Of a DNA stretch of 64,000 nucleotides, positions 13,573 through 25,712 are shown one piece after another. Position numbers and translations under genes: made by a program. How positions within the stretch are numbered: the first letter of the stretch is position 1; each line of letters begins with the position of its first letter. The DNA is from Candidatus Sulfotelmatobacter sp. (lineage in GTDB: Bacteria; Acidobacteriota; Terriglobia; Terriglobales; Acidobacteriaceae): positions 1-64,000 of the forward strand of contig DASYBM010000009.1 in assembly GCA_036500765.1 (NCBI GenBank), read 5' to 3'. The notes beneath the pieces are model-generated. The model saw only the letters and a program-made list of their open reading frames with translations. It made no database searches and was not told where the DNA came from.

Positions 13573-14223
13573 ATGGCTCACGAATTACCCGCACTTCCCT
13601 ACGCTTACGACGCCCTCGAACCCGTCATTGATAAGCAGACGATGACCCTTCACCACGACATGCATCACGGCGCGTACGTGAAAAATCTGAACGCCGCCAT
13701 CGAGAAGCATTCCGACCTCGCCGGCAAGTCCGCCGAAGATCTTATCCGAGACCTCAATGCCATTCCCGAAGACATTCGCGCCGCCGTCCGCAACAATGGC
13801 GGAGGCCACGTCAACCACAGCATGTTCTGGAAGATCATGAAACCCAAAGGCGGCGGCGACCCCTCCGGCCCCATCGCCGAAACCATCGCCAAAACTTTTG
13901 GCAACTTCAAAGATTTCCAAACCAAATTTAACGACGCCGGCACAAAACAATTCGGCAGCGGATGGGTCTGGCTCGCCGGCAAACCCGATGGCTCCGTTCA
14001 CATCATGTCCACCCCCAATCAGGACAACCCGATCAGTCAAGGCCACTATCCCATCTTCGGCAACGATGTCTGGGAGCACGCCTACTACTTGAAATACAAC
14101 AACCGGCGCCCCGAGTACTTGGCGGCCTGGTGGAACGTCCTCAACTGGGACGAGATCAACAAGCGCTACGCCACCTTCAAGGCCGGCAAAGCCGCGCACG
14201 AGCCCGCCCTCGCGCACCGCTAA
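13573..14223 (+). CDS. sodA: Superoxide dismutase, Mn/Fe type
   Basis: 216 residues from ATG 13573 with GGAGG 8 nt upstream. It opens [15 protein letters not shown], the family signature. Metal ligands: His in [13 protein letters not shown], His in [11 protein letters not shown], Asp in NDVWEHAYY and the following His. The [11 protein letters not shown] form and the [10 protein letters not shown] end favour manganese, but metal choice cannot be settled from sequence. It converts superoxide to peroxide and oxygen in the cytoplasm. A candidate TATAAT lies 62 nt upstream and a terminator follows. Confidence 0.97.
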
Positions 14224-14233
14224 AACACGTAGC

Positions 14234-14253
14234 GGCGGACGCATTCGTCCGCC
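14234..14253. repeat. Hairpin repeat, GGACG-CATT-CGTCC family (arms GGCGGACG)
   Basis: GGCGGACG, loop CATT, CGTCCGCC: an 8-bp perfect stem, 10 nt after the sod stop. Other copies are at 16572, 21215, 43343 and 56539; the outer arm bases differ but stay paired. Confidence 0.85.
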
Positions 14254-14307
14254 CGCAGGTTCTTTCAAGGGTCGTCGTTCCGAAAAGATTGTTCCAAAAA
14301 GAAAAAA

Positions 14308-14334
14308 GCCCTCGCGCCAAGCGAGGGCCTTTTT
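14308..14334 (+). terminator. Intrinsic terminator after sod
   Basis: GCCCTCGC, loop GCCAA, GCGAGGGC followed by a T-run, with A-rich sequence before it. Bidirectional use with the convergent YHS gene is likely. Confidence 0.9.
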
Positions 14335-14355
14335 GTCCAACCATGAATCCTGCCG

Positions 14356-14508
14356 TTAAGCCGCCGACTTCACATATTCATCCGGCCGCTTGTCAAACTC
14401 CTTCTTGCAGTTCTCCGAACAGAAAACATATTTCTTTCCCGCAAATTGTGTTTGATATTCGGCATTCTTTTCGTCGACTTTCATCCCACAAACCGGATCG
14501 ATGGTCAT
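14356..14508 (-). CDS. YHS-domain protein
   Basis: 50 residues from ATG 14508, preceded by GGAGGAGCG. The YHS domain is complete: DPVCGMKVDEKNA, then GKKYVFCSENCKKEFDKRPDEYV. The Cys residues of CGM and FCSENC are metal-binding in relatives such as heavy-metal-transport ATPase N-termini and copper-handling proteins. A stand-alone YHS protein probably binds or traffics a metal ion. The longer frame upstream is not family-like. Confidence 0.93.
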   Translation of the reverse strand: MTIDPVCGMKVDEKNAEYQTQFAGKKYVFCSENCKKEFDKRPDEYVKSAA

Positions 14509-15109
14509 CGCTCCTCCTGGATCGTTATTTGCTTTCGCCCCCTTCAAGTAGCAAGGACCATTCCTTTCCCGCCTTCTCCAAGTGGCTGCTATCCCTCGCA
14601 TTGCTCAGCCTCTCCCACCCCCGACCGCATCCCTCCCGGAAAATTGTTCCACCCCCGTGCAGGTTGTACTCAGCTCACGACGCAACTGGCATTCCATACC
14701 ACAGAAAAACATGTGACTCTCCCGGATGATTCCTCTGTGCCCTGCGTGCCCTCTGCGGTGGAGGTTTTGGGTTTCGCCTTTTCTGCATTTCCTGTGCACT
14801 CCCTGTGGACAACCCACCACCCTCAGAACCCGAACTCCCCCAGCATCATTCCCACTCCCACGAAAACCGAGCCATCCAGAGCCACAATCACACGCCTTTC
14901 ATCCCTTCCTTCATCAGTGCCAATCCGGGAAAGCCGAGCCCAGTTTTTTCCTCATTTGCACCAAAAATACTGAATTGACCGCCGCGCCTTTCGCTCGTAC
15001 AGTCACTGTCGCTCTCACAAAAATAATCAACTCAAGCAGAGCACCTTCTGATCGGATAAACCCGTTTGCGATTTGAACGTAATTAGTACGAGATCGAGGC
15101 AGCAACCAC
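14509..15109. other. Gene-free region
   Basis: Pyrimidine-rich and C-rich (many CCC and CTC runs). Frames crossing it have no natural composition or ribosome sites. No RNA gene or repeat recognised. Confidence 0.5.
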
Positions 15110-15691
15110 ATGAAACATGAGGAATGGAAGACCTACCGCACGCGCTTTCTAGTACAAGCCAAACAAATCAGCTCCACTCTGACTTTCGTCGACCATCTCG
15201 GCCGCCAGCATTGCGGACGCAAAGGCGATTACCTCGTCGAATCCTCCGACGGCGTCCTCAGCATCGCCCCCCGTCGCATCTTCGAAGATATTTACGTACC
15301 AATGTCTCCATCGAACCAACCACTTGCGGCGTTCCCGGCAATTTCCGGAGAAACCGCGCTGGTTGAGCGAAAGCCGATTGACCGAAGGCTTGACCGCCCC
15401 AAATTCGAAGAACTGGAAATCGAACGGCTAACCCTGCCCAGAACGCCGCCCGCTCGCCAACGAATCTCCGCATCGTTCAAAAAGCAGCCGTCCAGGGACG
15501 TGACAATGGCGACGGCCGCCAAGCCTGCCCTGAGCCTGTCGAATGGGGCCGTCCCACCGAAGCGAAGCGAGGCGGAACCCGCTTCAATTCTCGACGAAGC
15601 CTGCGCCCCACCCCGCGGCCGTAAACTCCCGCAACCCTATCGTGACCGTCGCCCTTCTTCGTCGCGCCTGAGTCTCATGGGAGTCCTTTAG
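15110..15691 (+). CDS. Hypothetical protein with a repeat-derived insertion
   Basis: 193 residues. The N-terminal ~65 residues look like a compact domain (YRTRFLVQAKQI, LTFVDHLGRQHCGRKGDYLVES, IAPRRIFEDIYVPM); I cannot name it. The C-terminal two-thirds is disordered. Around residues 138-155 (15523-15575) it contains KPALSLSNGA followed by PPKRSEAE, the translation of an intergenic-type repeat (CCCTGAGCCTGTCGAA) also seen near 45270 and 45410. This suggests an in-frame insertion of a mobile short repeat. Confidence 0.6.
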   Translation: MKHEEWKTYRTRFLVQAKQISSTLTFVDHLGRQHCGRKGDYLVESSDGVLSIAPRRIFEDIYVPMSPSNQPLAAFPAISGETALVERKPIDRRLDRPKFEELEIERLTLPRTPPARQRISASFKKQPSRDVTMATAAKPALSLSNGAVPPKRSEAEPASILDEACAPPRGRKLPQPYRDRRPSSSRLSLMGVL

Positions 15692-16354
15692 TAGCGAGGG
15701 AGCGCCGAAAATAACCCGGCGCTTGCGGCAGTAGAACCCAAAAACGGACGAGAAAATTAAAACCCGTCCTGGAGGCACGACTGAACCATCCATCGATCGC
15801 CGAAACCGCGCAGCAACTCCAGCCCTGCCGTCCAAACCGGGCCCCAAGAATGGCATTCTTACCAAATCGCCGCCATCCCCGATTTTCCACATGTGGAAAA
15901 CCGGGTCTCCACCCCGGCATCAAGCCCATCATTGCTATAGATACAACCTATAGTGTTTCCCTCTTGACAGGCACAACCAGCGGGAGTAACTTTGCAATCC
16001 CAAGCAACAAATTCCGCCCCACGGGAATGGGACGGAATTCCCAGCACTAAAGGTGAATAGAAGTGAAGTAGTGAAGTAGAAGTAAGGAGCGGTAAAGCAA
16101 AACGATCCGGCAAGATGCCCAGCCAGAGGTGACTCGGCATCCTGCTCGGTACAACCAGGGCCAGGGCTCCCGGCTTCCAGATCCGTAGGCCGGGACCCGA
16201 ACCTGAACATGTTTCCGGAGATTCCGGAAGCCGGACATAAATGCGGTGATCGTCCCCGACTCCCCCCGGGGTACGACGACAGAGTGATCTTCGAAGTAGA
16301 AGTACAGCCATCCTCCGGAGCCGAACGCCGGAAGCCGAGTTTCAGGAGCCCGTA
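15692..16354. other. Gene-free region
   Basis: About 660 bp without a convincing reading frame. It contains two CTATAG boxes and a promoter-like pair (separate entry), and a purine-rich run of GAAGTGAAGTAG-type units at 16060-16090. The frames antisense to it lack ribosome sites. Confidence 0.5.
15935..15992 (+). promoter_or_regulatory. Candidate promoter with twin CTATAG boxes
   Basis: TTGACA (15964-15969) is separated by 17 bp from TAACTT (15987-15992). Just upstream, CTATAG occurs at 15935-15940 and 15948-15953, 7 bp apart, which could be a repressor site. The next plus-strand gene starts 360 nt downstream. Confidence 0.4.
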
Positions 16355-17176
16355 ATGGAAGGTCTAACTCGTTTAGTCACAGAGTCTTTAGCGCGCCACG
16401 GTTTCGATCGTCCGCTCGACTACCGCCGCCTGCAATGGTCCCGCTGGTTCCGCTGCGAGTCCCCTCACAGCCTCCTGTTTGTCCCCAGCAAACCCGGCGT
16501 CTTCGCCCTGGCGGAAGAAGTCATGGACCTTGGCAATGCCCATGTGGGGACCAACGCCTCGACTCATGTGGGGACGGACGCATTCGTCCGTCCAGCAAGC
16601 GAAGCGAGCAGCACCGTTCCGAGGGCCGCCACCGGGGAGCCCGAAGCCCGTCCCCGCCGCATGCTAGCTGTAACCCAATTCTTCGAAGACGACGACATGG
16701 CCTTCGTGCTCGACCGCATGCTCTCAATCCACAACCCCATGGCTGCGCGCCTGACCTCCGGCCGCTACTTCGCCCGCTTCGTAGTTATCGCCGACCCCAC
16801 GCAGCGCCGTAGCATCTGCAACGCCCTGAATCAATGGATCGTGTCCTCTGCCGAGAAAGTCACCGGCATCGGCTCCCACTTCGCCAGTTCCCTGGAACTC
16901 ACCGACGCAACTGAACACATCGCCCAGCCCGATGCCGCGCAACGCACCCTCTTCGGGGTCAATAACAATTTAGAAAGCGCCGATCCCAATGTGGCGCGGG
17001 CACTCCTGCCCGCGACTCCCGACACCATCGGTACTGACGCGGCGAGCACGATACAGTCCCCCATAGCCACGAACACCACATACGCCAAGCATCCGACCCA
17101 CGCCGCGGCCCCGCATCTGGACTCCGGAGCCGCCTCCAACATTCACTGTCCAACTCCATTCCCCTCCGGCTTCTAG
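16355..17176 (+). CDS. Hypothetical protein interrupted by palindromic repeats
   Basis: 273 residues; AGGAG lies 6 nt before the ATG. The core begins YRRLQWSRWFRCESPHSLLFVPSKPGVFALAEEV and resumes at RRMLAVTQFFEDDDMAFVLDRML ... RFVVIADPTQRRSICNALNQWIVSSAEK. Between them, residues ~71-86 are encoded by a 43-bp hairpin repeat (HVGTDAFVRPASEAS) identical to one in nrdJ. A second palindrome (GCGGGCACTCC-type, 16991-17014) is translated in the disordered tail. The core looks like a lineage-specific family of unknown function. The tail is Ala/Thr/Pro-rich. Confidence 0.65.
   Translation: MEGLTRLVTESLARHGFDRPLDYRRLQWSRWFRCESPHSLLFVPSKPGVFALAEEVMDLGNAHVGTNASTHVGTDAFVRPASEASSTVPRAATGEPEARPRRMLAVTQFFEDDDMAFVLDRMLSIHNPMAARLTSGRYFARFVVIADPTQRRSICNALNQWIVSSAEKVTGIGSHFASSLELTDATEHIAQPDAAQRTLFGVNNNLESADPNVARALLPATPDTIGTDAASTIQSPIATNTTYAKHPTHAAAPHLDSGAASNIHCPTPFPSGF
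16568..16610. repeat. 43-bp hairpin repeat inside a gene (copy 1)
   Basis: Begins GTGGGGACGG, folds as GGACGGACG (16572-16580), loop CATT, CGTCCGTCC (16585-16593), and ends with AGCAAGCGAAGCGAGCA. All 43 bases are identical to 21211-21253 in nrdJ. It is read in the same frame in both genes. Confidence 0.95.
16991..17014. repeat. GCGGGCACTCC-type palindrome inside a gene
   Basis: GTGGCGCGGGCACTCC followed by TGCCCGCG. The first 16 bases are identical to those at 45255-45270 in the lolC upstream repeat. CGCGGGCA pairs with TGCCCGCG. Translated here as VARALLPA. Confidence 0.75.
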
Positions 17177-17312
17177 GCTCGGGACTGGTTATAGGCAATT
17201 CTGCCGTGGTTGTTCACGTTTTCTTGAGCCAGACCGGCGTGACAGTCGAACCTGTCGGGCTTGCCGTGCGCGGCTCGTTTGCGAGTTGATTGATTGCTGG
17301 AGATGGAACGAT

Positions 17313-19469
17313 ATGCCACATACTAAGGCCTTATTTTGGGGAACTCGGGCTTGCATCCCGGTCATTCTTCTGCTGGCCTCATGTGGACCAGTTCAAACCC
17401 AATCCGGTTCATCCGGCAGCCTCACGAGCTTCGGCGCAAAAGGAGATGCGATAACTCACGATGACGGTGTCGCCGTGGCCGGTTCCACAAACTTCAGCTC
17501 ACAATCGTCGTCGTTTAGCTCCGCCGATGTAGGAAAGTTCACCGAGATTACGGGCGCAGGTTCGAACGCGGGAATGCTGCATGGGGCTGGAACCGCAAAC
17601 GGCATCTTAGCCACGACGATTCAATCCGTGCTGAACAGTCATACCGTCATTCTTGGGAATGCCGCCTCTTATGCGGGATCGAATCTGCATTTTGTTTATG
17701 GCACCGACAACACGGCTGCGTTCCGTTCCGCCTACGAGTCTGGCCAGCCTATGTTCGTGCCTGCAGGAAACTATCTGATCGTTGCAGGCACCCAAACCGT
17801 GCCCGCAACCATCACCGGCACCCAGCCGCTTATCCTTGCTGGTACCGGTGCAGACTCCAAATTGCTCTCGGATAATCCGATCTTCTCTCTAACGACCAGT
17901 ACCTCGGGCTCTTCCGTCAAGAACCTTGATCTGGAGCCGATCGCCAAGTTCGCCGTCGTTGCGGTGAACGCTGTGCCCCCACCCTCCGGCACTCCCGTTC
18001 TAGTCGACATCTTTGGAACGGGAACTGGGATGCAGCCCAGTTTCAATTTTGCTCCGAAGTACCCGACTTTTTGGAATGGCCTCTCAGCCTTCCAGCAAAC
18101 TCAGATCCTGGGGCCGACAATTACGATTCAGGGCGGCGATCACGTCAACGTCAGCACTATCACCGGAAACCAGGTAACCATTCTGCTCGAAGATGTGACC
18201 TCTTCATCTCTACAAAATAACGACTTTACCGGTGGTTACGGCCCCAATGCGAACGAAGGGACAGGAGGCGTCCAGGGCTGCCTTGGCATCGCAACCCTAA
18301 CCGGCTCCGGGCAATATTCGAATGTGGGCAACACCATTAGCGGCAACAACATTCGCTATTGCAGCTTCAGCAACATTTTCTGGTCGAATGCAGACGGCTT
18401 GGTCGTTTCCGACAACATTTCGCAGTATTCGGGTGAATCCGGGTACAAGAACTTTCAAGGCAGTGCCACACGACCTACCCATAACCTTTCTGTGACTAAC
18501 AACATCGCACGCTATTCCGTTTTCGACGGATTTGATCTTTCGGCGGACTACCCTCATAAAGCCACCTTCCCCGAGTACGCCACCGTTATGGGAAATCTCT
18601 CCCAGAACAACCAGAGCACCGGATATTTCAGCGACGGCACCAATTGGAACTTCACCGCGAATACTGCCAGTTCCAACGGTATCGAGGGCTTCTATCTGGA
18701 TTACTCCAACAGCGTGATCTCCGGAAATGTCAGCCTGAACAACAATCTCAATAGCCTCAATTCTCCCAACTCGGACAATCAGTTCGTTATTGGAGGATGC
18801 TGTATTACCTCCAACAACGTTATCGAGAATAATCTGATCGCACTCACCATCGCCGGCATCAGCGGCGACGCAATGTGGGTCGGATCCAGCACTGTAACGG
18901 CCAACAACAATGTCGTGCAGGAACTCCCCGGCGAGGGAGGTCTCTGGTTTAATGTTCCCCCAACCAGTTCGAGCGGAAATACCGGCTGGCCTACCACGTT
19001 TAACGGCAATGTCACCATCAATGGAAATCTGGGCGTCATTGGAACGCTCTCGAAGGCCGCCGGGAGCTTTCGAATCGATCATCCCCTGGATCCGCTGAAC
19101 AAGTATCTGCTGCATTCATTCGTTGAGTCCCCCGACATGTTGAATATCTACAACGGGATCGTTGAACTTGACTCTAAAGGACGGGCCGAAGTCACCCTGC
19201 CTTCCTATTTCGAAGCCCTCAACGGCGACTTCCGCTACCAATTAACTTGTATTGGCAAATCCAGCCCCGTCTATGTCGCACGTGAAGTAAAAGACAACAA
19301 GTTTCTGATTGCCGGAGGCACTCGGGGTACGCGCGTGTCGTGGCAGGTCACCGGCATTCGTCGCGACCCCTACTCCCAGGCACATCGAATCCTGCCTGAG
19401 ATGGAAAAACCAGAATCCGAACGCGGCCATTATCTTTACCCGGAGATTTATCCGGAAGGCGAGAAGTGA
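17313..19469 (+). CDS. Right-handed beta-helix lipoprotein
   Basis: 718 residues from ATG 17313. The signal peptide ends with a lipobox (LLASCG, Cys at residue ~24), so the protein is probably anchored in the outer membrane. An early TSFGAKGD motif is typical of pectate-lyase/polygalacturonase-like beta helices and phage tailspikes. The long middle contains many asparagine-rich rungs (ISGNNIRYCSF, VTNNIARYSVFDGF, VMGNLSQNNQSTGYF, ISGNVSLNNN), the ladder pattern of a parallel beta helix. A C-terminal module from about residue 590 (PLDPLNKYLLHSFVESPDMLNIYNG...) looks like a separate beta domain. Probably a surface glycan-binding or glycan-cleaving protein; catalytic residues not identified. Confidence 0.82.
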   Translation: MPHTKALFWGTRACIPVILLLASCGPVQTQSGSSGSLTSFGAKGDAITHDDGVAVAGSTNFSSQSSSFSSADVGKFTEITGAGSNAGMLHGAGTANGILATTIQSVLNSHTVILGNAASYAGSNLHFVYGTDNTAAFRSAYESGQPMFVPAGNYLIVAGTQTVPATITGTQPLILAGTGADSKLLSDNPIFSLTTSTSGSSVKNLDLEPIAKFAVVAVNAVPPPSGTPVLVDIFGTGTGMQPSFNFAPKYPTFWNGLSAFQQTQILGPTITIQGGDHVNVSTITGNQVTILLEDVTSSSLQNNDFTGGYGPNANEGTGGVQGCLGIATLTGSGQYSNVGNTISGNNIRYCSFSNIFWSNADGLVVSDNISQYSGESGYKNFQGSATRPTHNLSVTNNIARYSVFDGFDLSADYPHKATFPEYATVMGNLSQNNQSTGYFSDGTNWNFTANTASSNGIEGFYLDYSNSVISGNVSLNNNLNSLNSPNSDNQFVIGGCCITSNNVIENNLIALTIAGISGDAMWVGSSTVTANNNVVQELPGEGGLWFNVPPTSSSGNTGWPTTFNGNVTINGNLGVIGTLSKAAGSFRIDHPLDPLNKYLLHSFVESPDMLNIYNGIVELDSKGRAEVTLPSYFEALNGDFRYQLTCIGKSSPVYVAREVKDNKFLIAGGTRGTRVSWQVTGIRRDPYSQAHRILPEMEKPESERGHYLYPEIYPEGEK

Positions 19470-19587
19470 TTACACGAAAGATCTTTAAATGAGTGCGTGC
19501 TCGATGGCGCCATCGGCGCGCCAGAGTCAGCGTATCCGGATCCTGCATCGAGTTGAGTCACATAGAATCTAATTAATGGAGAGCCCC

Positions 19588-22500
19588 ATGGCAGAATTGA
19601 AAACCGTCACCGAATCCGCCCCCGTCGCCGCCGCCCCGGCCGCCGTTAATAACAACAAGAAGAAGGCTCCCGGTCTCGCCTTCCGCCGCTTCTTCACCAA
19701 GCCCGGCGTCTCTCCCTACAACGAAGTCGAATGGGAACTCCGCACCGCCGCCATCACCGACGCCCAGGGCAACGTGATCTTCGAGCAGAAAGACGTCGAA
19801 GTCCCCAAAGACTGGTCCATGACCGCCACCAACATCGTGGCCTCGAAATATTTGCACGGCAAGATCGGCACTCCCGAGCGCGAAACCGGAGTTCGCCAAC
19901 TCGTCGCCCGCGTCGCCGAAACCATCCGCGACTGGGGACATGCGCAAGGCTATTTCCGCACCGCCGACGACGCCTCCACGTTCCACGATGAACTCGTGCA
20001 CATCCTCGTCCGCCAGTACGCCGCCTTCAACAGCCCGGTCTGGTTCAACGTAGGTTGCGATCGCATCGAGCCCAATTCCGACGGCCGCAACTGGCACTGG
20101 AACCCGCAAACCCAGCAAGTCGAATTCGGCGTCACCGGATACTCCAAGCCCCAGTGCTCTGCCTGCTTCATCAACTCGGTGAAAGACTCCCTCGACTCGA
20201 TCCTGACTCTCGCGAAGACCGAAGGCATGCTCTTCAAGTGGGGTAGCGGCACCGGCACCAATCTCTCGCCTCTACGCGGATCCACTGAAACTCTTTCCGG
20301 CGGCGGCACCGCCAGCGGCCCGCTCAGCTTCATGAAAGGCTTCGACGCCTTCGCCGGCGTCATCAAGTCCGGCGGCAAGACTCGCCGCGCAGCCAAGATG
20401 GTCATCCTCAACGTCGACCATCCCGACATCATCGAATTCATCGAGTGCAAACAAAAAGAAGAAGCCAAGGCTCACGCCCTGGTCGCCCAGGGATACGACG
20501 GCTCCCACCCCGACTCCGACGCCTACTCCAGCATCTTCTTCCAGAATGCGAATAACTCTGTCCGCGTCACCGACGACTTCATGTACGCCGTAGTCCGCGA
20601 TACAGACTTTTCCACGCGCACCGTCACCGATGGCTCGCCCGCAAAAACCTTCAAAGCAAAATATCTGCTCAACAAGATTTCCGAAGCCACCTGGCACTGC
20701 GGCGATCCCGGCATGCAATACGACACCACGGTGAACCGCTGGCACACCTCGAAAAACACAGCAAGAATCAACGCCAGCAATCCGTGCAGCGAATACATGT
20801 TCCTGGACGACTCCGCCTGCAATCTCGCGAGTCTGAATCTGCTGAAGTTCGCCCCCAACGGCACCTTCGACGTTGAAGCCTATCGTCACGCAGTAGACAT
20901 CCTGATCACCGCCCAGGAAATTCTGGTAGACAACGCCGGATATCCGACGGAACAGATCATGCGCAACAGCCACGACTACCGCCCGCTAGGCTTAGGCTAC
21001 GCAAACCTGGGTGCCCTGCTGATGGCCGCAGGCCTCCCCTACGACAGCGACGCCGGCCGCGACTACGCGTCTTGCGTAACCGCCATCATGTGCGGCGAAG
21101 CCTACCTCCAATCCAGCCGCATCGCCGAACAATGCGAGCCGTTAGTCCCAGCCACGGAACCAACAAAAAAGAACTTGTCCGAAACCAATCTAGGCGCAGG
21201 CATCACCCACGTGGGGACGGACGCATTCGTCCGTCCAGCAAGCGAAGCGAGCAACTCGACCACAACTCAAACCATGCCCGGCGGCGCCTGCCCCGGCTGG
21301 TACATCAACCGCGAACCCTTCCTGGACGTAATCCGCATGCACCGCGCTAGCGTCAACGCAATAAACAAAAATAACGTTCCAAGCTCAATCTACGAATCCA
21401 GCAAACAGTGCTGGGACGAAGCCCTCGCCCACGGCGAAAAGCACGGCTACAGAAACAGCCAGGTAACAGTGTTAGCGCCAACCGGCACAATAGGCTTCAT
21501 GATGGACTGCGACACTACGGGAATCGAGCCGGATCTGGCGCTGATTAAGTATAAAAAGCTGGTTGGGGGCGGCATGATCAAGATCGTCAACAACACTGTG
21601 CCCACGGCTTTGTTCAAGCTGGGGTACAACCACGATCAGGCTGACGCGATTGTCAGTTACATCGACGCGACTGGAACGATTGAGGGGGCGCCGCACATTA
21701 AAGATGAGCATCTGGCGGTGTTTGATTGCTCGTTCAAGCCGGCGAAGGGGACGCGGTCGATCGCCTACATGGGACATCTCCGCATGATGGCGGCTGCGCA
21801 GCCCTTTATCTCCGGAGCTATATCGAAGACCGTCAATCTACCCAACAACGCTACCGTCGACGACATCATGGAGACTTACCTTCAGGCCTGGAAGCTGGGC
21901 ATCAAAGCCGTAGCCGTTTATCGCGACGGATGCAAACAGTCCCAGCCGCTGTCGTCGGCTGGCAGCAAGACCGCGAACTCCACCAAGGACGACGCCCGCC
22001 TCGCTGCGGCTGCGCCGCAAGTCGAGGAGGCCGATCTCAACGCTCCTCCGCGCGCCGTGCGCCACAAGTTGCAGGAAGAACGCGCCTCGATCACCCACAA
22101 ATTCAAAGTCGGAGACCACGAGGGCTACATCACCGTCGGCCTCTACCCCGACGGCGAGCCCGGCGAACTCTTCATCACCATGGCCAAAGAAGGATCGACG
22201 GTCAGCGGCCTTATGGACAGCTTCGCGCTCGCCGTGTCGATCGCGCTGCAACACGGCGTCCCGCTGAAACTGTTCTGCGAAAAGTTTGCCCACACTAGAT
22301 TCGAACCGAGTGGATGGTCCGGCAATCCCGACATCGGCTACGCCAAGAGCATCATGGACTACATCTTCCGCTGGCTGCAAATGCGCTTCCTGACCGGCCA
22401 GCAGCAATTGCTGTTCGAGAGTTTCCGACCTCGGACCGCAGACCGCGGACCTCAGCCCGAAGGCGCCGGAGATGTGAATGGCGCAACGGGAGTGTCGGGG

Positions 22501-22674
22501 TCGACGTCTGAAGCCCGAGGTCCGAGGTCCGGTTCACCCCATGCCGCCGACGCCCTCTCCAGCATGATCGACATGGGCGACGCCCCCAGTTGCAGCTTCT
22601 GCGGCAGCATCATGACCCGGAATGGAAGCTGCTATCGATGCATGAGCTGCGGCAGCACCAGCGGCTGTTCGTAA
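19588..22674 (+). CDS. nrdJ: Vitamin B12-dependent (class II) ribonucleoside-diphosphate reductase
   Basis: 1028 residues from ATG 19588 (GGAG 6 nt upstream; an ATG 12 nt earlier is in frame). It makes deoxyribonucleotides using adenosylcobalamin as radical source, independent of oxygen. Visible: KWGSGTGTNLSPLRGS, the active-site NPCSEYMFLDDSACNLASLN (N398), GTIGFMMDCDTTGIEPDLAL and the C-terminal cysteine cluster CSFCGSIM...CYRCMSCGS (from C1002) that relays electrons from thioredoxin. Two segments look inserted: residues ~542-556 come from a 43-bp hairpin repeat, and residues ~945-985 hold a second repeat-like stretch. Both are in frame, so the enzyme is probably functional. Thioredoxin reductase lies 4 kb away. 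Confidence 0.97.
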   Translation: MAELKTVTESAPVAAAPAAVNNNKKKAPGLAFRRFFTKPGVSPYNEVEWELRTAAITDAQGNVIFEQKDVEVPKDWSMTATNIVASKYLHGKIGTPERETGVRQLVARVAETIRDWGHAQGYFRTADDASTFHDELVHILVRQYAAFNSPVWFNVGCDRIEPNSDGRNWHWNPQTQQVEFGVTGYSKPQCSACFINSVKDSLDSILTLAKTEGMLFKWGSGTGTNLSPLRGSTETLSGGGTASGPLSFMKGFDAFAGVIKSGGKTRRAAKMVILNVDHPDIIEFIECKQKEEAKAHALVAQGYDGSHPDSDAYSSIFFQNANNSVRVTDDFMYAVVRDTDFSTRTVTDGSPAKTFKAKYLLNKISEATWHCGDPGMQYDTTVNRWHTSKNTARINASNPCSEYMFLDDSACNLASLNLLKFAPNGTFDVEAYRHAVDILITAQEILVDNAGYPTEQIMRNSHDYRPLGLGYANLGALLMAAGLPYDSDAGRDYASCVTAIMCGEAYLQSSRIAEQCEPLVPATEPTKKNLSETNLGAGITHVGTDAFVRPASEASNSTTTQTMPGGACPGWYINREPFLDVIRMHRASVNAINKNNVPSSIYESSKQCWDEALAHGEKHGYRNSQVTVLAPTGTIGFMMDCDTTGIEPDLALIKYKKLVGGGMIKIVNNTVPTALFKLGYNHDQADAIVSYIDATGTIEGAPHIKDEHLAVFDCSFKPAKGTRSIAYMGHLRMMAAAQPFISGAISKTVNLPNNATVDDIMETYLQAWKLGIKAVAVYRDGCKQSQPLSSAGSKTANSTKDDARLAAAAPQVEEADLNAPPRAVRHKLQEERASITHKFKVGDHEGYITVGLYPDGEPGELFITMAKEGSTVSGLMDSFALAVSIALQHGVPLKLFCEKFAHTRFEPSGWSGNPDIGYAKSIMDYIFRWLQMRFLTGQQQLLFESFRPRTADRGPQPEGAGDVNGATGVSGSTSEARGPRSGSPHAADALSSMIDMGDAPSCSFCGSIMTRNGSCYRCMSCGSTSGCS
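21211..21253. repeat. 43-bp hairpin repeat inside nrdJ (copy 2)
   Basis: Identical over 43 bases to 16568-16610. GGACGGACG (21215-21223), loop CATT, CGTCCGTCC (21228-21236). Encodes HVGTDAFVRPASEAS in frame, between AEQCEPLVPATE and GGACPGWYINREPFLD of the reductase. Confidence 0.95.
22427..22529. repeat. Inverted-repeat segment inside nrdJ
   Basis: GACCTCGGACC (22427-22437) and its exact complement GGTCCGAGGTC (22519-22529) flank an 81-bp centre. The arms contain a further GGACC-type repetition (GCAGACCGCGGACC). The encoded RPRTADRGP and EARGPRSG peptides are Arg/Pro/Gly-rich and unlike the rest of the enzyme. Confidence 0.7.
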
Positions 22675-23030
22675 GCTTGAATTTGAAAGGACAAGGTTCT
22701 GTGGAAGAGCACGGCTTCAGCCGTGCCACCGGGGCACCATCCTCTCCGGCTTTTGGCCGCTGAGGTGAACAAGAGTTGCGGACGAGAACTCGCTCGCTCG
22801 TTTGTGGGGATGACTGGCACAAAGATGCCTAACATCTCCAAATAGAAGTGTAAAGAGACAACGACTGTGAGGGGTCACGGCGACGCCGTGGCCCCTTTTT
22901 CCGCTGCTGGGCATACGCTGAATGCAGATGACACGAAAGTCCCTTCCCCGGCTGAAACCGGAGACAAATAAGTCAGAATGAGCCAGGAGGGATATATGGC
23001 CCCGCTGGGGTGGTGCCGCGGAGCATAAAT
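22675..23030. other. Gene-free region downstream of nrdJ
   Basis: Contains a GTGGAAGAGC-led hairpin: GCACGGCT (22709-22716), TC, AGCCGTGC (22719-22726). At about 22870-22900 a second hairpin, CACGGCG-A-CGCCGTG flanked by GGGG/CCCC and followed by TTTTT, looks like an intrinsic terminator. No gene seen. Confidence 0.55.
22870..22901 (+). terminator. Candidate terminator downstream of nrdJ
   Basis: GGGG-T-CACGGCG, A, CGCCGTG-G-CCCC followed by five T. It is ~200 nt past the nrdJ stop, further than usual. Confidence 0.6.
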
Positions 23031-23423
23031 TCAGGCTGCGACCGACTCCGCCCTGCGACCGGCCAGGCGCAAGCCGATCCAACAACTCACCGGCCAAGTG
23101 AGCAGCCACGACAGCCAATACCAGTGCGGCCAGCCTTTGCTCCAGTTGGGAATAGTCGCTGCGATTCCCATGACTTCTCCGATGACAAAGAACCAGAGCA
23201 CATGCCGAGCGGCGCGGCGGGGGGCAAAGCGGGCGCAGAGCCAGGCGCAGAGGATCGAAATGACGACGAAGAAACCGGTGCTGGCCATCAGAGCGGAATC
23301 GGAGGGAATGCGTCCTCGGACGAAGTCACCGGGAAACAGGCGCGAGAGCAACGGGTCAGTTCCGAGAACAAGAATAATTGAGAGCACGTAACTGCCAGCG
23401 ACGACGGCTATAGACTTGAGCAT
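23031..23423 (-). CDS. Four-helix membrane protein
   Basis: 130 residues with hydrophobic helices at about 3-22, 45-65, 72-92 and 100-122. Motifs such as GFFVVISILCAWLCARFAPRRAARHVLWFFVIGEVMG suggest a small integral membrane protein. No family recognised. It lies downstream of the SpoIIE phosphatase on the same strand. Confidence 0.7.
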   Translation of the reverse strand: MLKSIAVVAGSYVLSIILVLGTDPLLSRLFPGDFVRGRIPSDSALMASTGFFVVISILCAWLCARFAPRRAARHVLWFFVIGEVMGIAATIPNWSKGWPHWYWLSWLLTWPVSCWIGLRLAGRRAESVAA

Positions 23424-23486
23424 CGGCTACACCTCCACGGCGCGAATTCTGCGGCCCAAGTATATGCAAAAACCCGCCAAGTTTGC

Positions 23487-25712
23487 TCACCGTGCTCTGG
23501 CTAATACCAGCGTTACATCATCCGGCTGTTCGTTGTCGCCGATCCAGGTATCGACTGCGGCGGTTACGATCTGGCTGATCTGCGGCAGGGGCAAGTCGCG
23601 ATTGTCGCGGACCAGGTCGATGAGGCGCTGCTCGCCGAATTCGCCGAAGTCGTTTTCTGGTTCCGTGACGCCATCGCTGTAGGCCAGAAAAATCTCTCGG
23701 GGATGCATTTCGACCGATCCCTCTTCGTACGTCATGTTGTCGAACAGGCCCACCACAGTTCCTCCGGCTTCGAGCCGGCGGATCGCGCCATCTTTGGCGA
23801 TCAGGATAGGAGGAAGGTGCCCGCCGTTGCTGTAGGTCAGCTCGTGCGAGCGCCCATCATAGATTCCCAGGAAAAGCGTGGCGTACTTTTCCGGCGGAGT
23901 ACTCTCGTAGAGCTGGTGGTTGAGCAAGCTGAGCAAGGCTCCTGGAGAAATCTCGACGCCCTCGGGCCATGCCGCCATCGCACGGCCAGAGCCTGCGACT
24001 GCGCCCACGGCTACCGGTTCGCGCAACTGCGGCATGGCTTCCATGCTGTAAGCGCGAACCGCGGAGTGAATGGTCGCCATCAGCAGGGCGGCTGAAATTC
24101 CTTTGCCGCTGATGTCGCCAACGGCGAGGATCAGCTTGTGGGAGCTGGCGGTTAGAAAGTCGTAGTAATCTCCGCTGACCGTGCGCGCGGGGCGGCAGAA
24201 GCCGTGCACTTCGAGCGACTCGAGTTGTGAAATTTGCCGCGGGAAGAGCTGAGCCTGAACTTCCTGCGCGATCACGAGTTCGTTTTCCAGCCTCTGCTTT
24301 TCCTTCTGCTCCAGAATTAGCTTCTCGATAGAAGCTGTCATCGAGTTAAACGACAGCGCCAGATGCGCCAGTTGATCGTCGGACTTGACCGGGATGCGAT
24401 GGCTGAAGTCGCCGCGGTCGATGTGGGTCGTCGCTTCGTGCAACTGCGCCACGGCCCGCGTGACCGTACGTGTCATGCGGGTGCCAATGATCAGCGCGAT
24501 CAGCTCGATGATGGCGAAAAATATTCCTACGCCGAGCAGGATGTACATCACGCCGCGAGCAAAGACGCCCAGAGCGGCAAACAGATGGCTATACAGCACC
24601 GACAGCCGGGTGCGGACCCGCACGACTGCGCCCGTAGTGCTGGTTCCGGTTTTCCAATCGATCACCGACAGCGATGTTCCGGCGAGGGGGATTTCGCGAT
24701 CAAACGTGCCCGTCGGGTTGGGCAGCGTGCCGACGCTGAAGATGGGATGAAATAAGTTCTGGTTGTTTGCGACCGATTCATCCTGCGGATTTGAACTGAT
24801 GACGATAGTTTGACGCTTCGGCGGATTGACTGACAAAGAAGTTTGAGCGCCGGAACTCTTCTGCCCGGAACTATCCTGTCCAGATTTTTCCTGGTTAAGC
24901 GTATTACTTTTTTCTGTATCTCTCAGCCAGGACGGAGCCAGGAGCGTGATCTCGCCGAGATCGGACGCGATGTTTCCCACTAGCTCGCGGTCAAACGGTT
25001 CGCTGGTAACGACCGTCAGTTGGCTCGATCCGACGGGAAGTGAGGAGATGACGCGCAGGTACAATCGGTTCTGGTCCAGAACCATGTCACGGAACTTGCC
25101 TTTGGCGAAGCTGGGGAACGTCAGCTTCTCGCCATTGAATTCATCACAGACTGGCAAGGGTTTGGTCCCATACCAGGCGCAGACAGCGCGACGTCCCCAG
25201 GCGGGATCGCGCTTTCTTAGTCCGGACAGAGATTCCGCGGCGGGGTTGGCTCCATGCTCCAATCGTGCCGCCAATTCATTGCTGACCGCGGCATTAGCGG
25301 CCTCAAGGCTTCGCAACTGGGAATTGATTTCAGAGGTCACCACGAACACGGCAAACTGTCCCGCCAGCCCGTACAGGCTGACGATTGCCATGGTGACCAG
25401 CAGCACCGCAGGAATTACGCCGATGAACACATACGTGACGATCAGGCGGTTGCGCAGCCGCCATAGGATTCTGCGCTTCAACCAGCGAAATGCGAGAACC
25501 GAAAACAATACCGTCGCGACGAAGACGAGGAAGCCGACCCATCCACTCAAATGCTCGCCCCATGATCGTGCAAACAATCCCAGGAACTTCTGTAGCGCGT
25601 ATAGCACAGCGGCCATGCCCGCGAAATAGCAGGCGATTCGCGCCATGCGGCCCTGGGGCCACAGTTCGGCCTGGATCAACCGGCTGCGCAATTCTGGATA
25701 AGACCATTGCAT
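23487..25712 (-). CDS. Membrane-bound SpoIIE/RsbU-type PP2C phosphatase with HAMP
   Basis: 741 residues. Hydrophobic helices at about 28-48, 57-80 and 88-112, then a periplasmic region to about 375, a further helix (YILLGVGIFFAIIELIALIIG), a HAMP linker (RMTRTVTRAVAQLHEATTHIDRGDFSHRI) and a coiled segment. The PP2C domain follows: EVQAQLFPRQISQLE, RTVSGDYYDF, LAVGDISGKGISAALLMA, FLGIYDGRSHELTYSNGGHLPP, FLAYSDGVTEPEND. The Asp residues of SGDYYD, GDISGKG and YSDGV bind two metal ions. Such proteins dephosphorylate anti-sigma antagonists in partner-switching pathways. No antagonist or anti-sigma kinase gene is adjacent. Confidence 0.92.
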   Translation of the reverse strand: MQWSYPELRSRLIQAELWPQGRMARIACYFAGMAAVLYALQKFLGLFARSWGEHLSGWVGFLVFVATVLFSVLAFRWLKRRILWRLRNRLIVTYVFIGVIPAVLLVTMAIVSLYGLAGQFAVFVVTSEINSQLRSLEAANAAVSNELAARLEHGANPAAESLSGLRKRDPAWGRRAVCAWYGTKPLPVCDEFNGEKLTFPSFAKGKFRDMVLDQNRLYLRVISSLPVGSSQLTVVTSEPFDRELVGNIASDLGEITLLAPSWLRDTEKSNTLNQEKSGQDSSGQKSSGAQTSLSVNPPKRQTIVISSNPQDESVANNQNLFHPIFSVGTLPNPTGTFDREIPLAGTSLSVIDWKTGTSTTGAVVRVRTRLSVLYSHLFAALGVFARGVMYILLGVGIFFAIIELIALIIGTRMTRTVTRAVAQLHEATTHIDRGDFSHRIPVKSDDQLAHLALSFNSMTASIEKLILEQKEKQRLENELVIAQEVQAQLFPRQISQLESLEVHGFCRPARTVSGDYYDFLTASSHKLILAVGDISGKGISAALLMATIHSAVRAYSMEAMPQLREPVAVGAVAGSGRAMAAWPEGVEISPGALLSLLNHQLYESTPPEKYATLFLGIYDGRSHELTYSNGGHLPPILIAKDGAIRRLEAGGTVVGLFDNMTYEEGSVEMHPREIFLAYSDGVTEPENDFGEFGEQRLIDLVRDNRDLPLPQISQIVTAAVDTWIGDNEQPDDVTLVLARAR

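Follow-up and report, generated by a model that had tools for sequence, protein, structure and literature searches.

In the Candidatus Sulfotelmatobacter genome studied here, the coding sequence of nrdJ very probably contains an inserted REP-like palindrome, a small element that is non-autonomous. The most interesting part of the case is the apparent turnover of REP cores at this one coding site across the genus. Work on palindromes entering essential coding sequence, and on their possible usefulness there, has dealt chiefly with host-bound bacteria, in which weak selection could account for them. Here, coding palindromes are found in UvrC, PurL, SucB, FtsK and NrdJ, in a genus with genomes of 3.5-8.2 Mb. 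The window, that is the whole stretch of 64,000 nucleotides that was analysed, corresponds to contig C9, one of the 17 contigs that make up a genome of 5.04 Mb, called below the source genome. It contains the following features.

16355-17176, forward strand: open frame of 273 aa, conserved near nrdJ, whose hypervariable linker is occupied by REPs as well as other repeats
16568-16610, forward strand: second A-type REP copy, identical to the one in nrdJ and read in the same frame as VGTDAFVRPASEAS
19576-22674, forward strand: nrdJ, class II (B12-dependent) ribonucleotide reductase, 1032 aa, NCBIfam equivalog
21196-21273, forward strand: hypervariable loop of NrdJ, residues 541-566, made of the REP and nrdJ-specific flanks
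21211-21253, forward strand: A-type REP element with a GTGG head, the hairpin GGACGGACG-CATT-CGTCCGTCC and a decayed second hairpin, read as VGTDAFVRPASEAS
22427-22529, forward strand: another variable part of NrdJ, in its C-terminal linker; it is repeat-like, and its inverted arms are imperfect (72% complementary)

The element and its host protein

The original prediction had named the host gene as a class II ribonucleotide reductase, and NCBIfam agreed, assigning the product to vitamin B12-dependent ribonucleotide reductase with 1467 bits against a cut-off of 859. We infer that the gene is essential from its single nrdJ match in the source genome, in a search of the nrdJ family alone. Its frame runs uninterrupted across the element and reads HVGTDAFVRPASEAS. 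The identity of 43 bases between nrdJ and a second gene was confirmed, since GTGGGGAC...GAGCA at 21211-21253 is repeated at 16568-16610 with no difference while the bordering bases are unlike. A 29-mer searched with up to 3 mismatches was found at these two window copies only and in 0 of 100 shuffles. Directly before the copy at 16568-16610, a degenerate repeat of the head occupies 16544-16567.

The repeat had been described as a 43-bp hairpin. The repeat is real, but it is better seen as a two-hairpin REP-like element, in which the strong hairpin is limited to the first 26 nt (a 4-nt GTGG head, a 9-bp stem and a CATT loop). This hairpin has a folding energy of -12.4 kcal/mol (z -3.96), a value equalled in 0 of 200 shuffles, and the remainder corresponds to a second hairpin, decayed here but preserved in some copies elsewhere. 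Source-genome copies align on GT[GA]GGGAC followed by the hairpin GGACGGACG-CATT-CGTCCGTCC, often with a second hairpin GCCGAGC-GAA-GCTCGGC. Because an N-purine-pyrimidine triplet precedes the head in 118 of 131 copies, the element probably begins at this triplet. As had been proposed, the nrdJ frame is open through the element, but this is no peculiarity of the frame used, since all six frames are nearly always open (each has a stop in at most 1 of 20 A copies). Rfam covariance models gave no match at either copy (positions 14000-24000 scanned, E up to 1). Further hairpins with the same GGACG-CATT-CGTCC centre and different outer stems were observed in the window at 14234, 43344 and 56539.

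An AlphaFold model of NrdJ, computed with 41 sequences, was of moderate quality (mean pLDDT 67.8, pTM 0.67). In this model, the pLDDT stays below 50 for residues 540-565, which form no regular structure and are bordered by helices 528-536 and 573-577; the insert loop is thus predicted to be disordered. The best fold match was the ribonucleotide reductase of Rhodobacter sphaeroides (7b9p); in a sequence comparison, the aligned blocks are separated here by 76 residues in NrdJ and by 41 in 7b9p. The C-terminal linker encoded at 22427-22529 also varies and looks repeat-derived, with RPTTNDQRPTT or RTENRELRTGS in relatives. In one relative (L055, G006:C439:2338-5490), the nrdJ match reads through one TGA, which may be a sequencing error or real.

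Dispersal of the family and copies inside genes

A genome-wide search showed the element to be dispersed and often in frame within other conserved genes. BLAST of the source genome returned at least 41 matches with E<1e-4 and at least 48 at E up to 10, with 40 of 97 candidates scored. The exact GTGGGGAC head was present in 60 copies. Four core types were distinguished in the genus, namely A (GGACGGACG), B (GGACAGCCG), C (GGACGGGCG) and D (GGACGGCCG), with 22, 29, 14 and 1 exact cores, respectively, in the source genome; reversed-pattern controls of heads and cores gave 0. At least one exact core was found in 24 (A), 45 (B), 29 (C) and 34 (D) of the 45 genus genomes, the reversed control being 0 throughout. 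Inverted pairs occur in the source genome at C4:1077262/1077369, C16:38438/38522 and C1:21447/21555.

A copy was counted as intragenic under a strict rule, which required an open frame running through the whole element and, both before and after it, a codon-usage score of 10 or more; the gene calls came from an ad hoc codon score, for which 27 frames of the window served as training set. Among headed copies of the source genome, the intragenic share was 11/20 for type A, 3/29 for B, 1/10 for C and 0/1 for D. Random positions gave 498/1140 under the same rule (260/600 in the window and 238/540 in other source-genome loci). Against this baseline, A copies were not depleted from genes (p 0.37) whereas B copies were (p 0.0002; A versus B, p 0.001). 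The count of 11/20 is conservative in one respect, because the frame at 16355-17176 failed the strict rule though it is matched in many loci.

The A family lies in frame in about a dozen source-genome genes other than nrdJ, most of them conserved and mostly in one frame. Apart from NrdJ, A copies were found in genes for an aconitase/LeuC-like protein, Thioredox_DsbH, a class I/II aminotransferase, UvrC (two copies), DUF1385, SucB, a DUF4015 hydrolase, an MsbA-like ABC transporter and a phage portal protein. In parallel, a C copy was located in UvrD and B copies in a DinB-family polymerase, an M28 peptidase and the DsbH protein. Beyond the 60 exact copies, A-like elements were observed in FtsK (with a GTAG head) and in PurL (on the reverse strand, with one core mismatch). 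The PurL insert is absent from solved homologues at residues 157-194 (3viu, with 1vk3 similar) and the MsbA-like insert is absent from the solved homologue 6raf at 414-447. In UvrC (L214/L215, G000:C4:1077262-1077394), two inverted A copies stand about 80 bases apart, both in the open frame.

In relatives, 7 of 40 A, 3 of 27 B, 0 of 1 C and 1 of 4 D copies were intragenic, versus 316 of 684 random positions. These A copies are 40 of 138 exact cores, examined with G022, G051, others, the G004 nrdJ copy and G003 left out; the 27 B copies come from the same loci as the A fetch, mostly from G001 and G041, and copies within 350 bases of the end of a stretch were excluded. The intragenic share of A thus differs between the source genome and relatives (11/20 versus 7/40, p 0.006). 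Since the relatives' A copies fall below the gene baseline, the density of A in coding sequence is special to the source genome, and a general attraction of A copies to genes was dropped on account of the 7/40.

Intragenic A copies showed a preference for frame +0 (VGTDAFVRP), which was used in 8 of 11 copies in the source genome and 5 of 7 in relatives. For the total of 13/18, the binomial p is 2.8e-7 against 1/6, with an effective n below 18 because some copies are orthologous: SucB (G000, G002), DUF4015 (G000, G001) and FAD oxidase (G004, G012). The remaining five A copies use frames -1, -2 and -0 in the source genome and +1 and -1 in relatives. B copies lie outside A's frame (-0, +1 and +2 in the source genome; +1 in 3/3 in relatives). 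Stop codons were rejected as the cause of the bias, the other frames being open too, and frame +0 did not stand out in mean hydropathy.

The nrdJ site across the genus

The nrdJ loop was readable in 33 of the 45 genus genomes, with 15 fetched loci without a readable loop left out. The loop alignment comprises 45 rows, seven duplicates and rows lacking the PAT/PIT anchor having been dropped; loops are identical in L083 and L050, in L084 and L169, and in L086 and L056. An insert was present in 15 of the 33 loops (54-65 residues between anchors) and absent from the 18 others (34-37 residues). The empty loops include those of two of the closest homologues, G012 (92% identical) and G021 (93%), while nrdJ of G003 and G004 carries the same A-type insert as the source genome. 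At the loop position, empty alleles of the ETNLGSN.M type have about 3 residues. The homologue comparison suggested with the original prediction thus found the segment missing from many relatives, and because it is missing, G012 and G021 included, the segment is not an ancestral loop. Judged by this alignment, the nrdJ copy is an insertion and not an old loop with ordinary divergence. That it is nevertheless such a loop, resembling 16568 by chance, is refuted and has practically no probability left, given the shuffles of the 29-mer, the 60 headed copies and the 18/33 empty loops. No clean target-site duplication was seen by eye in the genus nrdJ loop alignment.

The inserts do not carry one palindrome. 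Among the 15 genus rows, the core is A in 4, B in 4, C in 1, D in 2, an A-like 'E' in 2 and decayed in 2. Five palindromic cores (GGACGGACG, GGACAGCCG, GGACGGGCG, GGACGGCCG and GGGCGGACG-like) are therefore found at one site; the GGGCGGACG core of L051 was treated as 'other' in the count of changes on the tree and as E in the flank comparison. Outside the genus, nrdJ inserts were observed in L085 (C core) and L118, the latter with a GTAG-headed hairpin, a duplicated TCCAATGTAGGCGC stretch and flanks unlike those of the genus inserts. Six of the inserts, four with B and two with C cores (L085 included), all have 3-nt loops, which are rare among source-genome B copies (3/29).

Hairpin pairing was measured in 16 inserts (14 genus rows, L085 and L118), with G-T allowed: 12 pair at 9/9 positions, 3 at 8/9 and one, L172, at 4/9. 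L048 has lost its hairpin and stands outside the 16. The high number of fully paired stems despite different cores would suit a hairpin kept for function, either as mRNA structure or as a DNA site bound by gyrase or a transposase, with the paired stems reflecting compensatory evolution of one inherited insert. A common nrdJ-specific 5' flank would suit it too: inserts with different cores share this flank with a mean identity of 0.53, versus 0.33 to REP copies elsewhere, and a GGSATH motif occurs in 8/16 nrdJ inserts versus 1/131 REP copies elsewhere (in the downstream flank comparison, the row of L167, anchored on the wrong ATG, was unused). Yet more than half of the genus loops do without any insert, pairing has decayed in L172 and the hairpin is gone from L048. 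Moreover, cores A-D are dispersed families of the genus, and replacement by family members explains the pairing without selection. A retained functional hairpin is hence improbable.

Because inserts with different cores share their 5' flank, we read the genus inserts as one old insertion whose core was later replaced or exchanged. The history of the site is not simple. When the insert's presence and absence are mapped on a quick tree of nrdJ from which the loop was left out, at least 13 changes are required, and a single clade of all insert-bearers is rejected (AU p 6e-74), with 21 of 44 inner branches reaching 95% support and a topology that recombination may disturb. Such an interspersed distribution would be expected if insertions had occurred independently at a hotspot, the loop being permissive and perhaps a preferred target. 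The L118 hairpin with its other head and flanks points the same way, as do the neighbouring gene and UvrD, which also hold different REPs in different species. On the contrary, nrdJ-specific flanks shared by genus inserts with different cores are not expected from independent events. We regard independent insertion as possible, though not probable, and as compatible with the coding insertion of a REP-like element that we favour overall.

Horizontal exchange is also compatible with it: one or a few insertions may have passed between species when nrdJ segments recombined homologously. Three loop alleles (VATRLG.., ETNLGSN.. and the insert) are indeed scattered over the tree, near neighbours included, but exchange alone does not explain five core types, and we consider it rather unlikely. 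The core type in nrdJ may follow the abundance of cores in the same genome (permutation p 0.019, for 11 genomes, with phylogeny ignored and B dominant in most), an association that is suggestive only. As a tentative proposal, on which we would put somewhat less than even confidence, the NrdJ loop may be a fixed docking site, in which one ancestral in-frame insertion with nrdJ-specific flanks had its palindrome repeatedly replaced, with the frame kept, by the active REP family of each lineage.

A second hotspot lies in the gene near nrdJ. The frame at 16355-17176 had no match in Pfam or NCBIfam and was matched in 42 nrdJ-bearing loci, of which some are two records of one genome and a few are outside the genus. 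Its linker measures 24-82 residues across 31 readable rows, which include the identical-loop pair L084 and L169. Exact A or B cores were found in eight linker rows, A in the window and L047 and B in six rows. In G012, the nrdJ loop is empty and yet VGTDAFVRPASEAS is present in the linker of the neighbouring gene. Other repeat-like peptides of this linker, for example VEERRFSAASGA, PERSEGSP and ALQRCDSLP, vary by species. In the same way, UvrD carries a C-type REP in the source genome (L203) and B and D types in G001 (L323), that is, different REPs in two species, and the gene is perhaps a further recurrent REP site.

Proposed spread and relation to known systems

We infer spread of the copies by an enzyme acting on single-stranded hairpins with a GTGG head, which may be a RAYT-like transposase working in trans or another enzyme. 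Copies that enter genes would survive only if their length is divisible by three, if the peptide read from the frame can be tolerated and if they sit in a surface loop or an interdomain linker. The host protein would merely tolerate the added peptide, for which no function would be needed. Turnover of the nrdJ core between REP families across species could then proceed by replacement, re-insertion or allele exchange.

Y1_Tnp (RAYT) genes were found in 43 of the 45 genus genomes, with 237 matches. Of these, 36 loci were examined (7 in the source genome and 29 in relatives) and none had an exact A-D core, so that a RAYT flanked by the A-D family was set aside as the mobiliser. The nearest sequences to A-D cores at these loci were GTGGGGCGGACACTCCTGTCCGCC in L081 and GTAGGACGGACACTCATGTCCGTC in L082, and a C-like hairpin (GTGGAGCGGGCGCCCTCGCCCGCT) lies about 1 kb from the RAYT gene of L255. 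Other GT[AG]G hairpins flank two source-genome RAYTs on both sides (L196, GTGGCCCACTCAAG.., and L197, GTAGCGCCGGCGTCC..). In L199, also from the source genome, an inverted GT[AG]G pair (GTAGGACGGACACTC..) is located on one side of a RAYT that holds a stop.

Empty, filled and swapped states of one site coexist within a genus, so that insertion, choice of frame, replacement and loss become countable. If the docking-site reading were true, coding DNA would go on evolving in concert with a mobile palindrome, and these bacteria would have in REPs a lasting supply of linker peptides for their core enzymes. As a warning, loops of acidobacterial proteins such as VGTDAFVRPAERSE stem from repeats and should not be mistaken for conserved motifs.

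Several known systems resemble the element. REP sequences mobilised with RAYTs (TnpA-REP) are described in PMC6006769, as far as its account of them goes, as having GT[AG]G at the foot of a hairpin, many copies and some inverted pairs. The present element is like REPs of the GT[AG]G type in having GTGG at the foot of a 9-bp stem, a loop of 3-4 nt, dispersed copies and inverted pairs; it differs from the system of that account in that no family-flanked RAYT was seen in the 36 loci examined of 237 matches. REPs of this type lie mostly outside genes, and in this respect the picture is mixed: few source-genome B copies (3/29) and few A copies of relatives (7/40) are intragenic, but 11/20 source-genome A copies are, with 498/1140 and 316/684 for random positions. 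The table of REP counts of RepRanger (PMC12306157) lists Granulicella aggregans and two other Acidobacteriota genomes, and REPs as such were therefore already reported from the phylum.

Intragenic REPs of the GTAG and CGTC super-families were presented by Di Nocera et al. (2013, PMC3733652) as short tagged palindromes in known genes. According to the main text of that paper, many of them lie in replication and repair genes (UvrABCD, RecBCD, DnaE2) and two Xanthomonas recB genes carry different REPs at about the same site. GTAG repeats are placed there in Proteobacteria, Cyanobacteria, Chloroflexi and the PVC group, and Acidobacteria appear only with tyrosine transposases flanked by other repeats; the word 'ribonucleotide' is absent from this main text. 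The present family is similar to those described there in occupying UvrC, UvrD, a DinB-type polymerase, NrdJ and FtsK. It differs from them, as they are portrayed in that text, by a mostly GTGG head, a second hairpin, a strongly one-framed type A and five cores at one site across a genus.

Rickettsia palindromic elements (RPE; Ogata et al. 2000, 2002) are palindromes of about 150 bp that occupy unrelated genes in frame and encode a conserved peptide there, as summarised in PMC10969869. The main text of PMC3733652 gives CGTC as the ends of R. conorii RPE and identifies RPE-4 and RPE-6 with two of the CGTC families. The likeness to these elements that had been put forward holds for the in-frame position in unrelated conserved genes and the conserved predicted peptide, but not for length (43-50 nt), head (GTGG) or host (an acidobacterium), when set against the size and tag given in these accounts. 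Among the open-access papers listed, titles and opening lines of abstracts mentioned no in-frame palindromes in Acidobacteriota or in nrdJ, which argues only weakly that none have been described. Apparently new are the family itself, the presence of coding palindromes in Acidobacteriota, the preference for one frame and the turnover of cores between REP families at a single coding position. Altogether, the element works like a coding palindrome of the RPE and intragenic-REP kind; it is a REP by structure and, by tag and length, not an RPE.
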